From the NCBI GenBank assembly GCA_947172415.1, contig OX359197.1:7441673-7505672 (forward strand): 64,000 nucleotides of DNA, written 5' to 3'. The notes below the pieces were generated by a model. That model saw only the letters and a list, made by a program, of their open reading frames with translations. It made no database searches and was not told where the DNA came from. This document shows, piece by piece, positions 19,443-28,700 of the stretch; within the stretch, counting starts at the first letter, position 1, and each line of letters starts with the position of its first letter. The translations under genes were made by a program, and so were the position numbers. Source of the DNA: Chondrosia reniformis (lineage: Eukaryota; Porifera; Demospongiae; Chondrillida; Chondrillidae).

Positions 19443-20400
19443 ATGTGCTCGCGATGGAGGAGTATCCATCCGTTATGGAACACTAGTTTGAATACCAAAT
19501 CAATTCAGTGAGTCGTCATACCTTTCGCCTCATGAAGGTCTTGCTAAGATAAGCTTAATGTCTAATGGAATAGCATGAAAATTGTTTGTTAGAATTACAA
19601 TCATGCATTGACTTATAAATCTCTTTGCAGATGTATCTAAACTATAATAAATTAAGGAACCAATAATGCACACGGCATTATGGTATTCGGGTCACATAAG
19701 CATTCCTTATGTCTTTTTGTTGCATTTAGCCAGTGTTTGTTTATAATTTTTATTTTAGCACATCTTTGAATCTGTCAAAAATGAGGTCTGGAATCCAAAA
19801 ACTGACTACTGTTAAAATAGCTGACAACAGTGAAGCTGCAAAACCATACAAGTTGACACCAAAATGTATTCATGTTTACGGAAGACAAACTGCTAATGTT
19901 GGAGATAAGATCCTAATTACTGCTCGTGGGGAGATGTGGAAGGCTCTAGTTCTAGCTACTAAGGTATTTAATCACCTCTCTAGTGTGACCACCTCTCTAG
20001 TGCAACCACCTCTCTAGTGTGACCACCTCTCTAGTGCAACCGCCTCTCTAGTGTGACCACCTCTCTAGTGTGACCACCTCTCTAGTGCAACCACCTCTCT
20101 AGTGTGACCACCTTTCTAGTGCGACCACCTCTCTAGTGCGACCACCTCTCTAGTGCGACCACCTCTCTAGTGCGACCACCTCTCTAGTGTGACCACCTCT
20201 CTAGTGCGACCACCTCTTTCCTACAGGTCCCCACTCCTGGTGCCTCCCCCCGAGTAAGGTATGATGGAAACTATGTTGCGTTAATGAACAATAAGAATGA
20301 ACCAATTGGAACTCGTATCAAGATCCCGCTTCCATCGTCCATTCGAAAGCACTCAGATAACTATAGTAAAGTGTTAGCGTTGTGTAAAAAGTTTCTCTGA
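19443..20400 (+). CDS. MRPL14: Mitochondrial large-subunit ribosomal protein L14 (uL14m)
   Basis: Three exons: 19443-19507, 19759-19963 and 20227-20400. They join in frame to 147 residues, close to the usual animal length of about 145. Exon 1 (MCSRWRSIHPLWNTSLN...) is rich in Arg, Ser and Trp with no acidic residue, fitting a mitochondrial presequence. The mature part has the L14 core: IQKLTTVKIADNSE, KCIHVYGRQ, VGDKILITARGEMWKALV, NKNEPIGTRIKIPLPSS and SKVLALCKKF. uL14m sits at the mitoribosomal subunit interface. The start was chosen because exon 1 gives the correct phase (CA|C). An internal ATG at 19781 would remove the presequence. It is transcribed divergently from the spectraplakin gene. 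Confidence 0.93.
19968..20222. repeat. 17-bp minisatellite in MRPL14 intron 2
   Basis: About fifteen units of CTCTCTAGTGTGACCAC, with TGCAACC and TGCGACC variants. They fill almost the whole intron up to the acceptor (CTTTCCTACAG). The sense strand is pyrimidine-rich, as in the minus-strand genes of the window. Confidence 0.93.
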
Positions 20401-21700
20401 ACCATGTGTATCTATAGAATTGTATACACACATTGTAACAAACATCTTTGTAATTTCAAACAGAAAAGTTACTATTGCATTGAGCAGCTGAAGATAGAAT
20501 AGTCACATACCAGAATCATGTGAAACTGAATGCAAAACACCTTAAATTCACATCTGAAACAATTCCATTCCTGGCAACTTTGTTAATGATATAAGCTGTT
20601 GACACAGGTACTATGAAATACTTCCAACTGAAATGTCCCTTTCAATGAGATATATCCTGACCAGTCTGAGGTAATGTTCCTTACATGGTGACCAACCTTA
20701 GTGTAAGTCTCTGTATGGGAGCAGTCTTTATGGAGAGGTAGTCTCTGTATAGGAGCAGTCTTTATAGAGAGGTAGTCTCTGTATAGGAGCAGTCTTTATG
20801 GAGAGGTAGTCTCTGTATAGGAGCAGTCTTTATGGAGAGGTAGTCTCTGTATAGGAGCAGTCTTTATAGAGAGGTAGTCTCTGTATAGGAGCAGTCTTTA
20901 TAGAGAGGTAGTCTCTGTATAGGAGCAGTCTTCATAGAGAGGTAGTCTCTGAATGAAGAGATGAAGAGAATTCATGTCATGGTGTCAAAGGTATATTCTG
21001 TTTATGTAGAGTTAATCTGTTCTAAAATACCAGTAAAATGGTGACTAAATTTGGAGAACTCCATTTGTCTAATTGGCATATCATTATGTGTGATGTTACT
21101 CAGCAATGGAATTCAGTGTACTTGAACAAATTGTAATTCAATATGTTTTGAATCATTTAGCTATTGACCAGGAATGCAGTAAAGTATATCTCAAAAACAT
21201 ATGGTCTTAAACTGTGAATATATATGAAAATTCTAAGATAGAAGAAGATATATGTTATATATACGTACGTACCAAATTTCCACTTGGAACACAATTTCAA
21301 CTTGACAAAGACAAAAACGATGCTTTTAATTTCAATGACATTGTCTGGAACATGGTTCATTGAAAGTTCAGATTGAAAATGTTTAAGGTTACAGTTATTG
21401 ACACTTCTTCATGTACATATGGCCAAGGATTGACAAAATCAAGAGATTCCCAGGGTCACTGATGAAGGATGGAATCCCAGAAATAGCTGTCTGGCCCAGT
21501 AGAGCAAAAGAAGTGGGGTACTGTAGCTAATTTGGGCATATGGAGCATCACTATAAGCGCTGCCATACATACGAACTTCTCCAACTGTTTTATTGAAATA
21601 AGAATTAGCAAATGGAATTGCAGGATTTTGTAACCTTCATGTACAAACACAAGCCATAAAATTTTGAATGATGACATTAAACATGTTGGGTAGTAAAACG
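20401..21700. other. Intergenic region with a 34-bp minisatellite
   Basis: No gene recognised. A tandem repeat at about 20,705-20,952 has a 34 bp unit (AGTCTCTGTATAGGAGCAGT plus CTTTATAGAGAGGT) in about seven copies. The rest is AT-rich and includes the MRPL14 3' UTR. An open minus frame at 21,456-21,719 has no recognisable protein pattern. Confidence 0.7.
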
Positions 21701-21710
21701 GAAGCCGTAA

Positions 21711-21718
21711 TGACGTCA
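21711..21718. promoter_or_regulatory. Perfect CRE palindrome TGACGTCA
   Basis: An 8 bp CREB/ATF consensus with a related TACGTCAA about 50 bp downstream. It precedes a CpG-containing stretch that could be the promoter or first exon of the adaptor gene. Functional use is inferred only from sequence and position. Confidence 0.4.
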
Positions 21719-21739
21719 TGTAGGCTGCTCGTTCGGTAA

Positions 21740-22022
21740 TTTTAAGTGCGGATCGGCAGAATACGTCAATACAGCTAGCTGGTCGATGAAAATACAGTAA
21801 TTCTCATTGTACCCATTGTGGAGAGGTTAATCAAATAAAGGAGTATTTCAAAAAGAACTAGAGCTTAGAACCAGAATTAGACGCTACGCGAAGAATCGCC
21901 GCTGGCAGTAATTATCGACGACTGTAGTATAATTGGTTGTGCCATTAAAATTACTCGTGCCAAAGTGACAAGGCATTTTTGGCACTGTAAGGAGATAATA
22001 TACAAGTTAATTGCGCCCACAA
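21740..22022 (+). other. Possible non-coding first exon of the adaptor gene
   Basis: A stretch with higher CpG than its surroundings ends at a strong donor (CCACAA|GTAAGTAC) at 22022/22023. It has only tiny reading frames, so it would be a 5' UTR exon spliced over about 1.7 kb to the exon at about 23,700. The left edge is arbitrary. The AT-rich stretch 22,023-23,690 then reads as an intron with nothing else visible. Confidence 0.35.
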
Positions 22023-23712
22023 GTAAGTACATTATTATAATATCTGTGTTTTTATAATTTTGGAACTGTTTAAACAGATAACGTTGAGATAGTCATAAAA
22101 CTCTAAGCAGATGTTAGATAATCGAATTGCTTTAGATTTGGCTGTACCGAAACGGATTCTATATCAGTTGGACCAGATGGAGACATTTAATGTCTGTTTT
22201 GTTGATGCATGCATGCTGTATATAATGCAGTGCATGATTGAGGTACTCATTAGTAAAATTCTAATTCAATTAACCACAACTTCCACTTGGTGGCACTGTA
22301 ATATATAGATGTGTATGTAAATGTATATACATACATATGAACTTATATAGAAATTACATTAGTAAATAAATGGCATATATATATAGTGTGTTTGCATTGA
22401 GTCATGGAGATAAGACTTATTCATCACTTTATGACACATATAGAGCATTAAGGATTAAAAGGCTTTTGTATATTTCTTATTTCTTATTCTGCAATAGCTT
22501 ATGACAGCCCTATTATTTCATATATGGTATATATATACATAAATGGCAGTCTATATGTATGATATTGAAACTGAATTATTATTATTATATTATTATGTAT
22601 TACAAGAGGTTGCCAATAGTTGCAACTGCCTGAAAGTTATAGTAGTGTTTAATTGAGTCATCTTGTACAGTTTCACTTCATGACTGTATAGTTAGGAGTA
22701 AACTCTTATAGGCTGCCTGTATATGTACGCATAAGCTTGCTGTTTGTGTTCAGATTACTGAGTCTATATACAAAACTATAACAGAAATGGTGTTTGAAGA
22801 ATACATATTTACATATTTGACCTTTATATATAGTACATAGTATATTTCATTCAAAAATCCATAAAAGCATTTCCCTATGCATATATAACAATATTTATAT
22901 AGATATATGCAATTTATCCATCTGAGTTATATCCCATACTATTTGGCTGAGTATAGTTAAAATTCATTTGATCATGTACGTATTAAATATTATATGTATG
23001 ATGAAATCAAGAATATTCTATTTTATGACATAATAATATAAATGCTTGTTAGAGTCAGTGGACCATACAATATGTTCTCATTCATATTGCAACTGTTTTC
23101 AATTGTAAGACTAATTAATTAATAGTTATGTGTTCCGCTGAGTCCATATTGATCCTTTAAATGAGTGTATGGATACTGATGGTCACTGCAATAATATTTA
23201 AAATTGTCTAAATTACATAATCCCTCCAGGCTTGTTGATTTTATGATTGAACCTGTCTGTATCTGATTGTATTTGCATAGAAGTGTTAAAAGTATATGTC
23301 TCTTGCAATTTGATAAGAATGTATGTGTGATTTGGTAGAATTAAGAGTATAAAAATGATTTAAATTAATGATTTAAACTATGGAATTAAAACCAATTTTT
23401 TAATGAGGATGGTGCTTTGGGCAATTAATTATGTTAAGTTTTAATCTTGTACTGTAAATATTTAAAGACAATCTTTTTACTACTGAATTCATATTTTAAA
23501 GACAATCTTTTTACTTCTGAAATACTATGAAAGGTAAACAAAGCTCTAGTCTGGGACACAATATTGGTGTAGATTACAGAATACAAAGGCAGCATGCTTA
23601 TTCAATGCATAATGCTTGGGACCTTGAATTTTATTCCAGGTGTCTGCAAGTTTATTATGTACAATGCTTATTGCATGCATATGTTATAATTATATATGTA
23701 GATAAAGCATCA

Positions 23713-25231
23713 ATGATTAATCATACCAATACCACTGATGATCCAACCACTATAATCATTGCTGCCTCAGTTGGAGCCGTAGGTGGATTACTACTCTTGG
23801 TAACTGTAATATTTATCATAGCATGTACTATTTACTGCTCATTGAAAAGAAGAAGGAATATGAGGGAAAGATCAGACTTAATTAATGAGATTAAGAGAGA
23901 TCCTCCCTCGGATGATACCACTGCCTCTCCAGGTATCTCTCACACACACATGCTCTAGTTATACAAACAATGGATATAAATGTACTCTTCTGTCGACAGT
24001 ATCTTGTCAACCTTGGCTGCATTGTAAACACTCCCATCCTCACACACATAAAGTGTACTAACTACATACAATATACTGAGTACATGTAGTCTATATATAC
24101 GTATATATACCAAATAACTATGTCAATTGGATGGTCAGTGTAATATCTTGCAATGATTATGTAACTTTGTGCACTTAACTCCCTCAACTTCATACCAAAT
24201 GTACATGAAATACTAAACATACAGTGACTTCCACAAGTAGTTTTCTCCACATATACGTATATGAAATACACAATTAACTTCTGATGGATGTATACATAAC
24301 ATACTAAATGAAACATAAATTAATTGGTGGAGATATTGATGTTTGTAGGAGTCACAGAAACAGCTACAAACAATGGCAACACCCGAGAGAAACTAAACAC
24401 ACTAGAGAATGGTTATCAACCAATGGGATTACATCTTGGCATTCCTTCCAAACTAAGCATTGGCAAGAGGTTTACAGAGAGGAAGCCAAAGAAAAAGAAG
24501 ACTACAGCTACTAAATCTCCTTTGAAGCCTCCAGTAGCTGTGAAAACAGTGGCTGATCCGAGCAAAGAGCCAGTGAAGGCGGCAGCCAGTGGTGATGATG
24601 ATCAAATGTATGGCCCCCTTTGCTTGAGTGATCTTGTCGATTCTCCTGACAAATCACATAGGAAGGAGGAGAATGGCTCAGGAAGTGAAAGTGAAAATGA
24701 ATATTACAATGAGGTCCCGTCTTCCAGGAAGTCTGCTCAGGCAGACAGCTTGGAAAGGCTGGACATGCCTCAATATGACTACGCTGAACCTGACCTTCAG
24801 AGCACTCAGCCAGAGGGTTCAAAGGTCACTTCCTTCCAAGAGCAGTCACTGAAATATGTTAATGTGCCACCAAAAGCCACCAAATCTCCACCCAAAATAG
24901 CAACAAAGAAATCGACCAAAAAAGTAAGTTCTCATCATCCCTAGCTCCAGTACTTTGCATGACGACTGCCTTGTATTTACTATACATACATATTAATAGG
25001 TAAGTTATGGCTTTTATAAATGAATCTGAAATGGGATATTTGTATGCACTAAGTGATTTAGAAAAGTGACTCAAATGCATACAGTATGAGAGGAAGAGGA
25101 AGAAAGGGAGGGAGAGGGAAGGAGAGATTATATTACTTTTCAGTAAGTGTATTCCAATTGTATCGTTTTATTTACAGGATAAAATGACAGTTGCTTACGC
25201 CAATGTTCAGAATGATGGAATGCCAAAGTGA
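23713..25231 (+). CDS. Single-pass transmembrane adaptor with YxxM and YxN motifs (LAT/NTAL/PAG-like design)
   Basis: Three exons: 23713-23932, 24349-24923 and 25178-25231. They join in frame to 282 residues. The outside part is tiny (MINHTNTTDDPTT, two N-glycosylation sequons). It is followed by one membrane helix (about 14-40) with Cys38 and Cys42 at the inner face and a KRRR stop-transfer signal at 45-48. The tail is long and low-complexity: YQPM at 96 (PI3K p85 type), YGPL at 161, YYNEV at 192, YDYAEP at 216, YVNV at 243 and YANV at 272. Those at 192, 243 and 272 fit the Grb2 SH2 rule YxN. A proline-rich SPLKPPVAVK lies at 130-139. There is no kinase or other folded domain, so it would be a phosphotyrosine scaffold. 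The start is uncertain: an upstream coding exon could add a signal peptide or ectodomain, making it a receptor instead. Confidence 0.7.
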
Positions 25232-25748: not shown

Positions 25749-28700
25749 TCAATCTTGCTTCACAGCCGCATAGATCTTGCGAATAAAGAAGAATGTTGAG
25801 TAGAATCCCATTGTACCAGTCAGCAACCAAAAGCCAAACACCATTAGAAAGGTATATCCAAAGTACATCAGTGATGGAGTAAACTCAGTTATGTCCAACT
25901 GATGGTGGAGAGATTTTGAGAAAGGTGTGGATTATAAGAGGAACACACTGGGCCCATACAGTCAGTAAATTAAACTTAGAACTCTCTACATGATATGTTG
26001 TATGTAAATCTATACAGAGCTGCAACTTTTGTACACAAGATATGATATTCACACTGTGACACCAGAAGTGGTAGCTTTGTCCGAGTTACATGCATAGGAA
26101 CTTACAGTATTGAAGAAATAAATAACAGAATAAGCAAATATGTAGTAGGCACAGGATCCTGCAAAGTGAAACGACTTCCACCACCAGTGATAGTTCTGAA
26201 ACAGAAGAGGAAATTGGAATTAACGTCCTGCAATAATAATGTGGGTCTTTTGATAGAGGTGATAGAAGAGATATACACTTCCTGTCACATTGCAAGGATG
26301 GCTACTTCCTGTCATATGTGCAAGAATGGCTACTTCCTGTCACATGTGTAAGGATGGCTACTTCCTGTCACATATGCAAGGATGGCTACTTCCTGTCACA
26401 TGTGTAAGGATGGCTACTTCCTGTCACATGTGCAAGGATGGCTATTTCCTGTTACATGTGTAAGGATGGCTACTTCCTGTCACATATGCAAGAATGGCTA
26501 CTTCCTGTCACATATGCAAGAATGGCTACTTCCTGTCACATGTGTAAGGATGGCTACTTTCTGTCACATGTGTAAGGATGGCTACTTCCTGTCACATGTG
26601 CAAGGATGGTTACTGACTTCTCCACAGAGTTGGAAGTATGTGAGCACCATGGCAACCTCAGAGCAGGCTATGACCAGGATGATGAACACAATAAACAAGA
26701 ATCCAAACAGATAGTAGAACTGGTTCTGCCAAAACGCCTAATCATTGGAGAGAAATTGAGAAAGTCAGCTGAGGATTGAGGTGAAAGGGAGGAGGTGGGA
26801 GGAGGTGAGATGCAAGAGGTGAGTGGGAGGAGGTGAGATGCAAGAGGTGAGTGGGAGGAGGTGAGATACACGAGGTGAATGGGAGGAGGTGAGATGCACA
26901 AGGTGAGTGGGAGGAGGTGAGATGCACGAGGTGAGTGGGAGGAGGTGAGATACACGAGGTGAATGGGAGGAGGTGAGATGCACAAGGTGAGTGGGAGGAG
27001 GTGAGATGCACGAGGTGAGTGGGAGGAGGTGAGATGCACGAGGTGAGTGGGAGGAGGTGAGATGCACGAGGTGAATGGGAGGAGGTGAGATGCACGAGGT
27101 GAGTGGGAGGAGGTGAGATGCACGAGGTGAGTGGGAGGAGGTGAGATGCACGAGGTGAATGGGAGGAGGTGAGATGCACGAGGTGAGTGGGAGGAGGTGA
27201 GATGCACGAGGTGAGTGGGAGGAGGTGAGATGCAAGAGGTGAGTGGGAGGAGGTGAGATGCACGAGGTGAATGGGAGGAGGTGAGATGCACGAGGTGAGT
27301 GGGAGGAGGTGAGATGCACGAGGTGAGTGGGAGGAGGTGAGATGCACGAGGTGAGTGGGAGGAGGTGAGATGCACGAGGTGAATGGGAGGAGGTGAGATG
27401 CACGAGGTGAGTGGGAGGAGGTGAGATGCACGAGGTGAGTGGGAGGAGGTGAGATGCACGAGGTGAATGGGAGGAGGTGAGATGCACGAGGTGAATGGGA
27501 GGAGGTGAGATGCACAAGGTGAGTGGGAGGAGGTGAGATGCACGAGGTGAGGAGTGAGGTGAGAACTAGAGACGACTTACCGATAACAAGAAGTACAACT
27601 CAACAAAGACAGCTCCAAAGGGAAGTATTCCAGCTAGTAGAGCACTGTACAGCAACAGAGAAACACCCCTTTATAAGCAGGCTTGATATTAATTTCCATT
27701 CTAACCTGTAAACGGGTTTCAGATACCAAACTTGATCTGGAACCTGCCTAGGAATCTGATTGGTCCTTACAGGAATATCATACGGCTGCTTGCGATAGCC
27801 AAAGTAGAAGCCGCACAATACAAGTGGAAGTGATATTCCGAACCACATGCACAAAAGTGAGAGAAGTGTTGAAAATGGGATCTGGGGAGGGCAACGTATG
27901 ACATGCATATGTGAACCTCAGTACATCAGTGTACAGAGCTCTACGTACAGTGTGTATGTATGTATGTAGCTAATGCAAATGACTTACTGCACCAGAAGAG
28001 TGCCTTCCCCAAATAAAGAAATTTATGAAAAATCCAATTCCAAAGACAGTACCTAAAGAGCAAAGTGAAAGTGAAGATATTCTTCTTCTTCTATAGAGAG
28101 CCAAACAAGTGTCTACACTTACCTGGGTAGATAGAGGCAGTCAGTACAGCAGCCTTCTTCCAGTGACTGCCCTTCATTGTTCTGTACATTCTGGCTGCGT
28201 GATACCCTGCAATGAGCCCCATGAACATGAAGAGTACAATGGCCGCTGTCATCAGAGCTCCTCGAGAGGCTGGACTGAGCATTCCAAACATTGCAAATAC
28301 TACAACCATTCAGATGTAATAAGGTATTTGGGGTATCTCAGGATATTCTAGGATATTCTAGGATATTAGCCAGTAAACTTACCCAGTATAATACAGACCA
28401 TACACATGATTTGTAAACCAGATCCGAGGAAGGCAGTTAAAATTGTGTTAAACTGCGGGGGCCGAAAGACATCGCCATGAATCAGTTTCCAGCCAGTCTC
28501 CTCTAGAGCCTCGTCCTGTGCAGTGGAGAGAGTTAAAGTGAGTCAACCCTACTCAGATACCCATGTCTGCAGTTACCAGTTCATCTGAATCATCATTGTA
28601 CTTGGCAATGTCCCTCCTCAGAGTTCTGATCAACACAAGCGCCAAAATACCAGAGAGAAACAACACAATAGCTATACTATTGCAAATAGCAAACCAGTGG

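Follow-up and report, generated by a model that had tools for sequence, protein, structure and literature searches.

The window analyzed here, i.e., the whole 64,000-nucleotide stretch C9:7441673-7505672 of the kidney sponge Chondrosia reniformis (a demosponge), harbors on contig C9 (chromosome 9) a three-exon gene coding for a 282-residue protein whose gene model has the layout of the vertebrate transmembrane adaptor proteins (TRAPs): few residues outside the cell, a single membrane helix, and a long tail bearing tyrosine motifs. An excerpt of one account describes TRAPs in the same terms and adds that most of them have a juxtamembrane palmitoylation motif (PMC4861716). We tentatively favor the explanation that the sponge protein is a plasma-membrane docking scaffold, resembling LAX or NTAL in design and having a separate (convergent) origin. 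This reading is drawn from sequence data, all of which, as far as the sponge gene is concerned, come from one species; the genome searched comprises 117,379,552 bases in 15 contigs.

Structure of the protein and tyrosine motifs of the tail

An initial annotation of this DNA had claimed a spliced protein of 282 residues with frame-keeping joins; the three exons, which have GT..AG borders and keep the frame throughout, confirm it. The coding features are the following (window positions):

23713..23932, + strand: first coding exon, with the outside part (residues 1-13), the membrane helix (~14-42), the basic KRRR, and the start of the tail
23752..23838, + strand: membrane-spanning stretch, residues 14-42, from hydropathy and the AlphaFold2 helix, with C38 (23824-23826) and C42 (23836-23838)
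24349..24923, + strand: main tail exon, with Y96 YQPM (24414-24416), Y161 YGPL (24609-24611), Y192 YYNE (24702-24704), Y218 YAEP (24780-24782), and Y243 YVNV (24855-24857)
25178..25231, + strand: last coding exon, stop included, with Y272 YANV (25196-25198)

The hydrophobic run starts at I14, the best 19-residue hydropathy window being 2.76, and the windows starting past residue 45 peak at 0.15, which points to one membrane helix. The AlphaFold2 model, made from the single sequence, has a helix at residues 11-61, confident over residues 11-40 (block means of 85, 95, and 96), and a short second helix at residues 85-93 with low confidence. Hydropathy and AlphaFold2 agree with the one helix of the initial annotation, and the outside part has, in the gene model, the 13 residues given there. 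Two N-glycosylation sequons (N3 and N6) are present in the 13 residues before the helix, and the KRRR following it suggests that the N-terminus faces outward. No cysteine occurs in residues 1-37, and the two juxtamembrane ones, which are where they had been placed, have a C-x-x-x-C spacing, differing from that of LAT; their palmitoylation is possible. The tail (residues 43-282, 240 residues) consists of disorder-promoting residues for 59%, in agreement with the disorder previously ascribed to it; the predicted local distance difference test (pLDDT) score is below 50 for 150 of the 282 residues, which is weak evidence of disorder because the model was made without an alignment. A simple pattern did not reveal any C-terminal PDZ ligand.

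The tail contains eight tyrosines: 96 YQPM, 161 YGPL, 192 YYNE, 193 YNEV, 216 YDYA, 218 YAEP, 243 YVNV, and 272 YANV. The SH2-type motifs are YxN in three of them (192, 243, and 272) and YxxM in one (96), all at the positions already reported. The probability of such motifs was estimated with 200,000 composition shuffles of the 240-residue tail, whose figures flatter the case because the motifs were picked after being seen: at least three YxN occurred in 0.57% of the shuffles (P 0.0057; observed 3, shuffle mean 0.43), at least one YxxM in 18% (P 0.18, not significant alone), and the two jointly in 0.11% (P 0.0011). Moreover, YxN followed by V, I, L, or M was observed twice (P 0.0019), Yxx[LIVM] five times (P 0.0029), and YxxP once (P 0.54).

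Relation to sponge receptor genes

The first alternative to be weighed is that the gene represents the last part, with membrane helix and tail, of an ordinary sponge receptor, with no adaptor design, the ectodomain exons being unrecognised because they are too divergent for Pfam or further upstream. We consider this unlikely.

The search of the protein against the whole genome (expectation value, E, of 10) retrieved 14 matches: three to the gene itself, ten to the helix region, and one to the tail. The latter, a candidate tail paralogue (E 0.18), runs through two stops and was discarded; no convincing tail paralogue was found in the genome. The first coding exon finds its nearest matches in the membrane exons of other genes, at 23-44% identity (E 0.07 to 1.3). 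By eye, the surroundings of six such loci (L015, L018, L019, L032, L033, and L034) contain SRCR-like, immunoglobulin (Ig)-like, fibronectin type III (FN3)-like, or other large outside parts, the fn3 of L034 being supported by Pfam. These receptor-like genes share with the candidate adaptor gene a similar helix and an available phase-1 acceptor before it; they differ from it in the outside domains upstream and, for L034, the one tail counted, in the lack of YxN. The L034 tail has 529 residues, 27 tyrosines, 11 Yxx[LIV], and 7 YxxP, with no YxN and no YxxM; hence, according to this single comparison, a tyrosine-rich tail does not force the presence of the two motifs.

As for the splice acceptors before the helix, checked in ten loci, a phase-1 acceptor is located 8-38 nucleotides (nt) before the motif in nine, and L018 has phase-1 sites only farther off; in the candidate adaptor gene, the phase-1 acceptor is at 50 nt. 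This match in intron phase is modest evidence because acceptors of other phases occur in several loci, AG is common, and the loci form about five groups of near copies. The helix resemblance, together with the phase match, suggests either that the gene derived from a receptor through ectodomain loss or, alternatively, that it is a receptor whose ectodomain escaped detection. Since the sequences closest to the membrane exon belong to sponge receptors, a local origin is likelier than shared descent with the vertebrate adaptors.

L034 and L017 (C8:6.25-6.26 Mb) form a pair of receptor-like genes whose membrane exon resembles that of the candidate adaptor gene.

The 5' end of the gene

Where the gene starts bears directly on the receptor alternative. 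The upstream features are the following:

21790..22022, + strand: candidate untranslated 5' leader exon, ended by the donor GTAAGT at 22023; start position not fixed
22023..23701, + strand: inferred intron 1, with donor CAA/GTAAGT; an alternative acceptor ends at 23639

The ATG-free run between the ATGs at 21786 and 22111 is 325 nt, the longest in 20400-23715 (the next is 121), and it continues beyond the donor, to 22111. The candidate leader (233 nt) lies within it; dinucleotide shuffles of the leader average 4.3 ATGs, and 0.28% have none, an optimistic figure because the leader start was set directly after the last ATG. Just upstream, at 21711, is TGACGTCA. If the transcript starts at 21790 and 22022 is joined to 23702, ATG 23713 is the first start, and stops in frame with it are present in the leader at 21836, 21866, and 21878. 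Four GT[AG]AG donors, the only donor type scanned, were found on this strand in 20400-23701, the best placed being that at 22023. These stops and the lack of ATG in the leader speak against a receptor with exons further upstream.

The initial annotation had indicated an upstream coding exon with a large ectodomain as the finding that would contradict it. No Pfam family matched at E 0.5 when the 3.3 kb up to MRPL14 (20400-23712) was translated in its three forward frames, and no ectodomain was found there via donors and codon scores either; further upstream are MRPL14, on the same strand and ending at ~20400, and then, on the opposite strand, a gene that by eye resembles spectrin. The positive control of the scan came from the receptor locus L034, represented by two forward frames out of three, each shortened, and fn3 was retrieved, at 6.2e-8, in one of the two. 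The exon conceived as contradictory was thus not found, within the limits of a scan whose sensitivity is discussed below.

Several points weigh against a scaffold almost devoid of an outside part. The control scan missed an exon reading as Ig-like by eye, and it recovered a second fn3 piece only below the cut-off (0.015); because of this missed exon, a divergent ectodomain may have escaped the scan. All six inspected look-alike loci carry outside domains, so that the prior favors a receptor. In the joining phase, the leader has no stop over the 47 codons from 21881 to 22022 and scores +0.11 per codon, which makes a coding exon entering from further upstream conceivable. The acceptor before 23702 is weak, with 7 of 14 pyrimidines; the alternative before 23640 has 10 of 14 and would introduce short upstream ATGs without providing a start in frame. 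The start context at ATG 23713 is also weak (T at -3), and the coding scores of exons 1 and 3 are close to zero (+0.03 and -0.01 per codon, respectively).

Two other candidates in this region carry less weight. An N-terminal extension from the M at 23527 (23527-23712) is rather improbable in view of its coding score (-0.24 per codon, against +0.20 for the main exon). Near 21402-21438 the sequence looks coding, but this stretch was discounted on account of its overlap with a dispersed repeat (21412-21513, roughly 100 bp, many genomic copies).

SH2 readers and kinases in the genome

A second alternative, which we regard as quite improbable, is a genuine single-pass protein with a minimal ectodomain, the tyrosines of which serve sorting, adhesion, or cytoskeletal contacts, the SH2 motifs being incidental. 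It fits the chance-level occurrence of YxxM and YxxP, and it is also favored by the post hoc choice of the motifs and by the restriction to one species. Conversely, the three YxN, two of which have V as the next residue, with the significance reported above for YxN plus a hydrophobic residue, argue against it, as do the matching readers (Grb2 and p85) found in the genome.

The genome contains 82 SH2 exon matches. On C4, two tandem SH3-SH2-SH3 genes read, by exons, as Grb2; the SH2 of one of them, joined from two exons, has Grb2 as its best PDB match (8.4e-37) and retains the FLWVVKF stretch, whose tryptophan we take to be W121, the residue favoring asparagine at +2. On C6, a p85 was recognised, the N-SH2 of which best matches p85 alpha (2.1e-42); its inter-SH2 piece, at 26.2 bits, falls short of the cut-off (31.5), with weak PDB matches to p85 (best 0.03). 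Furthermore, Nck (three SH3 and an SH2) and the SH3-SH2 of an Abl-like kinase have Pfam support, and PLC-gamma and a Tec-like kinase were recognised by eye. A total of 153 matches was obtained with the kinase model PF07714, whose range extends to Ser/Thr kinases.

Some of these loci deserve a description of their own. The starts of the Grb2 tandem (L030, C4:8851500-8855000) are ~1.5 kb apart, and the SH3 and SH2 parts of the two genes differ slightly. A cluster of SH3, SH2, and tyrosine-kinase-type exons, which reads as Src-like, is located at C9:7333705-7383043, ~59-108 kb left of the window, and a second Src-like cluster is at C9:6.61-6.70 Mb. L025 (C8:6007500-6011500) reads as a Tec-family-like kinase, with PH/BTK-like, SH3, SH2, and kinase exons. 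Lastly, L035 (C9:1353000-1362900) harbors, on the minus strand, two open frames, L035:2324-3508 (395 residues) and L035:6625-7689 (355 residues), each of which encodes three SH2 domains in a row within a single exon (Pfam SH2, three stretches per frame, 3.4e-47 and 2e-46); an animal protein carrying three such domains is not known to us.

Comparison with vertebrate transmembrane adaptors

The protein did not match the Pfam models of LAT (PF15234), LAT2/NTAL (PF15703), PAG (PF15347), or LAX (PF15681). When the genome was probed, the LAT and LAX models retrieved nothing and the LAT2 model had no match, its controls being silent too, which renders the latter result uninformative; the PAG model gave four matches below the cut-off (E 0.21-0.81), none of them in the candidate adaptor gene, and the three inspected are FN3 receptors by reading. 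These genome searches are weak because they were carried out exon by exon, with no vertebrate positive control. In the PDB, the sequence search gave one non-significant match, with an E of 0.7, to the helix in a beta subunit of a sodium channel, and the fold search gave none. Among the open papers listed, titles and abstract openings revealed no sponge transmembrane adaptor of this design. The bacterial and archaeal genomes yielded 105 pattern matches, none of which is a relative, as expected; this, the only cross-genome scan, also counts on the unfavorable side for the scaffold, as does the cysteine spacing in the comparison with LAT.

Among the known adaptors, LAX binds p85, NTAL has its cysteines in a CxxC arrangement, YVNV is also a LAT motif, and the PLC-gamma-1 type site of LAT is YLVV. 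The sponge tail does not have a site of this type, its only Yxx[LI] being YGPL. PAG/Cbp has the same layout and differs in that the sponge protein lacks a C-terminal PDZ ligand and has no sequence match to it; the YANV of the sponge tail suits the Csk SH2 preference as well as that of Grb2. The Shisa adaptors are likewise single-pass and tail-heavy, but there is no cysteine before the helix in the sponge protein and, consequently, no N-terminal cysteine-rich domain. NTAL/LAB (LAT2) shares the short ectodomain of the gene model and the Grb2 motifs, and it is palmitoylated according to an excerpt of PMC4861716, whereas the sponge pair is CxxxC rather than CxxC and there is no sequence match. LAX (LAX1) has one helix and multiple Grb2-binding motifs; the same excerpt describes it as lacking a palmitoylation motif (PMC4861716), unlike the sponge protein with its two juxtamembrane cysteines, and again there is no sequence match. 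The likeness to LAT is in the layout, as given in part of PMC10079008; the palmitoylation cysteines of LAT, C26 and C29 in the excerpt of PMC4861716, are not matched in spacing by C38 and C42, and no sequence match was found. Since the layout fits and no model matches, the protein would function in the manner of the TRAPs, coming closest to LAX or NTAL, and yet stand outside these families.

That the gene is a true orthologue or ancestor of the vertebrate LAT/NTAL/PAG/LAX adaptors appears very improbable. The same layout and the YVNV-type motifs would favor it, together with the four sub-cut-off PAG-model matches, with the reservations made above about where these fall; on the other hand, the protein matches none of the four models, the LAT, LAX, and LAT2 models are silent in the genome (a weak result, lacking a vertebrate control), and the authors of a study of the amphioxus slp76 signalosome found no LAT-like molecule there, according to the part of it considered (PMC5431462). 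LAT itself is described in tetrapods, fish, and birds in an excerpt of PMC10079008. Of the interpretation given in the initial annotation, the adaptor design holds, backed by the short N-terminus, the helix, the YxN-rich tail, and the fact that no ectodomain was found in the 3.3 kb where it would most likely lie (by a scan that missed an Ig-like exon in its control), while a homologous ancestor receives no backing from the adaptor models.

Coding potential and neighboring genes

A pseudogene or a gene-prediction artefact, to which the near-zero coding scores of exons 1 and 3 would point, can be given hardly any weight, since the frame is open across three exons with consensus borders, the main exon of ~190 codons scores positive (+0.20 per codon, with a coding model trained on 2007 codons), and no second copy of the tail was found in the genome.

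The left neighbor, MRPL14, is on the + strand (Pfam Ribosomal_L14, 3.4e-12), and one of its introns holds a minisatellite at ~19970-20220. The right neighbor is a TM9SF/EMP70-like gene on the opposite strand; its exon 27600-27917 matches EMP70 at 2.8e-19, and its last piece, near 25749, was recognised by eye with no Pfam match. A long minisatellite occupies an intron of this gene (window 26790-27550), and a 250-bp repeat stretch with many genomic copies is present at window 20706-20954.

Possible role and origin of the putative sponge adaptor

Under the scaffold explanation, the protein would be placed at the plasma membrane with almost no outside part and its N-terminus outward. Activation of a nearby receptor or Src-type kinase would lead to the phosphorylation of the tail tyrosines; the YxN sites might then recruit Grb2 (and, through it, Sos to Ras), and YQPM might recruit p85/PI3-kinase. 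The three Grb2 sites could also cross-link the protein into clusters, as modelled for LAT. Its origin would probably be a sponge receptor gene that lost its ectodomain exons, with the phase-1 membrane exon left behind a leader exon.

A broader proposal, which we put forward as doubtful, is that in sponges the role of a Grb2/PI3-kinase hub falls to a dedicated adaptor of receptor origin. It would be conserved among the demosponges, and Src-type kinases acting below sponge Ig/FN3 receptors would phosphorylate it; a hub design of the LAT type would thus have evolved on its own at the base of animals, and no LAT homologue would be needed. In the part of their work considered, the amphioxus authors asked whether an unknown membrane-bound protein does the work of LAT in that animal (PMC5431462). 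If the proposal is true, the lymphocyte-adaptor design arose outside vertebrates too, and a sponge scaffold unrelated to LAT would demonstrate that evolution can readily arrive at the hub design, perhaps through the trimming of a receptor, for which this one short gene would offer a test case.
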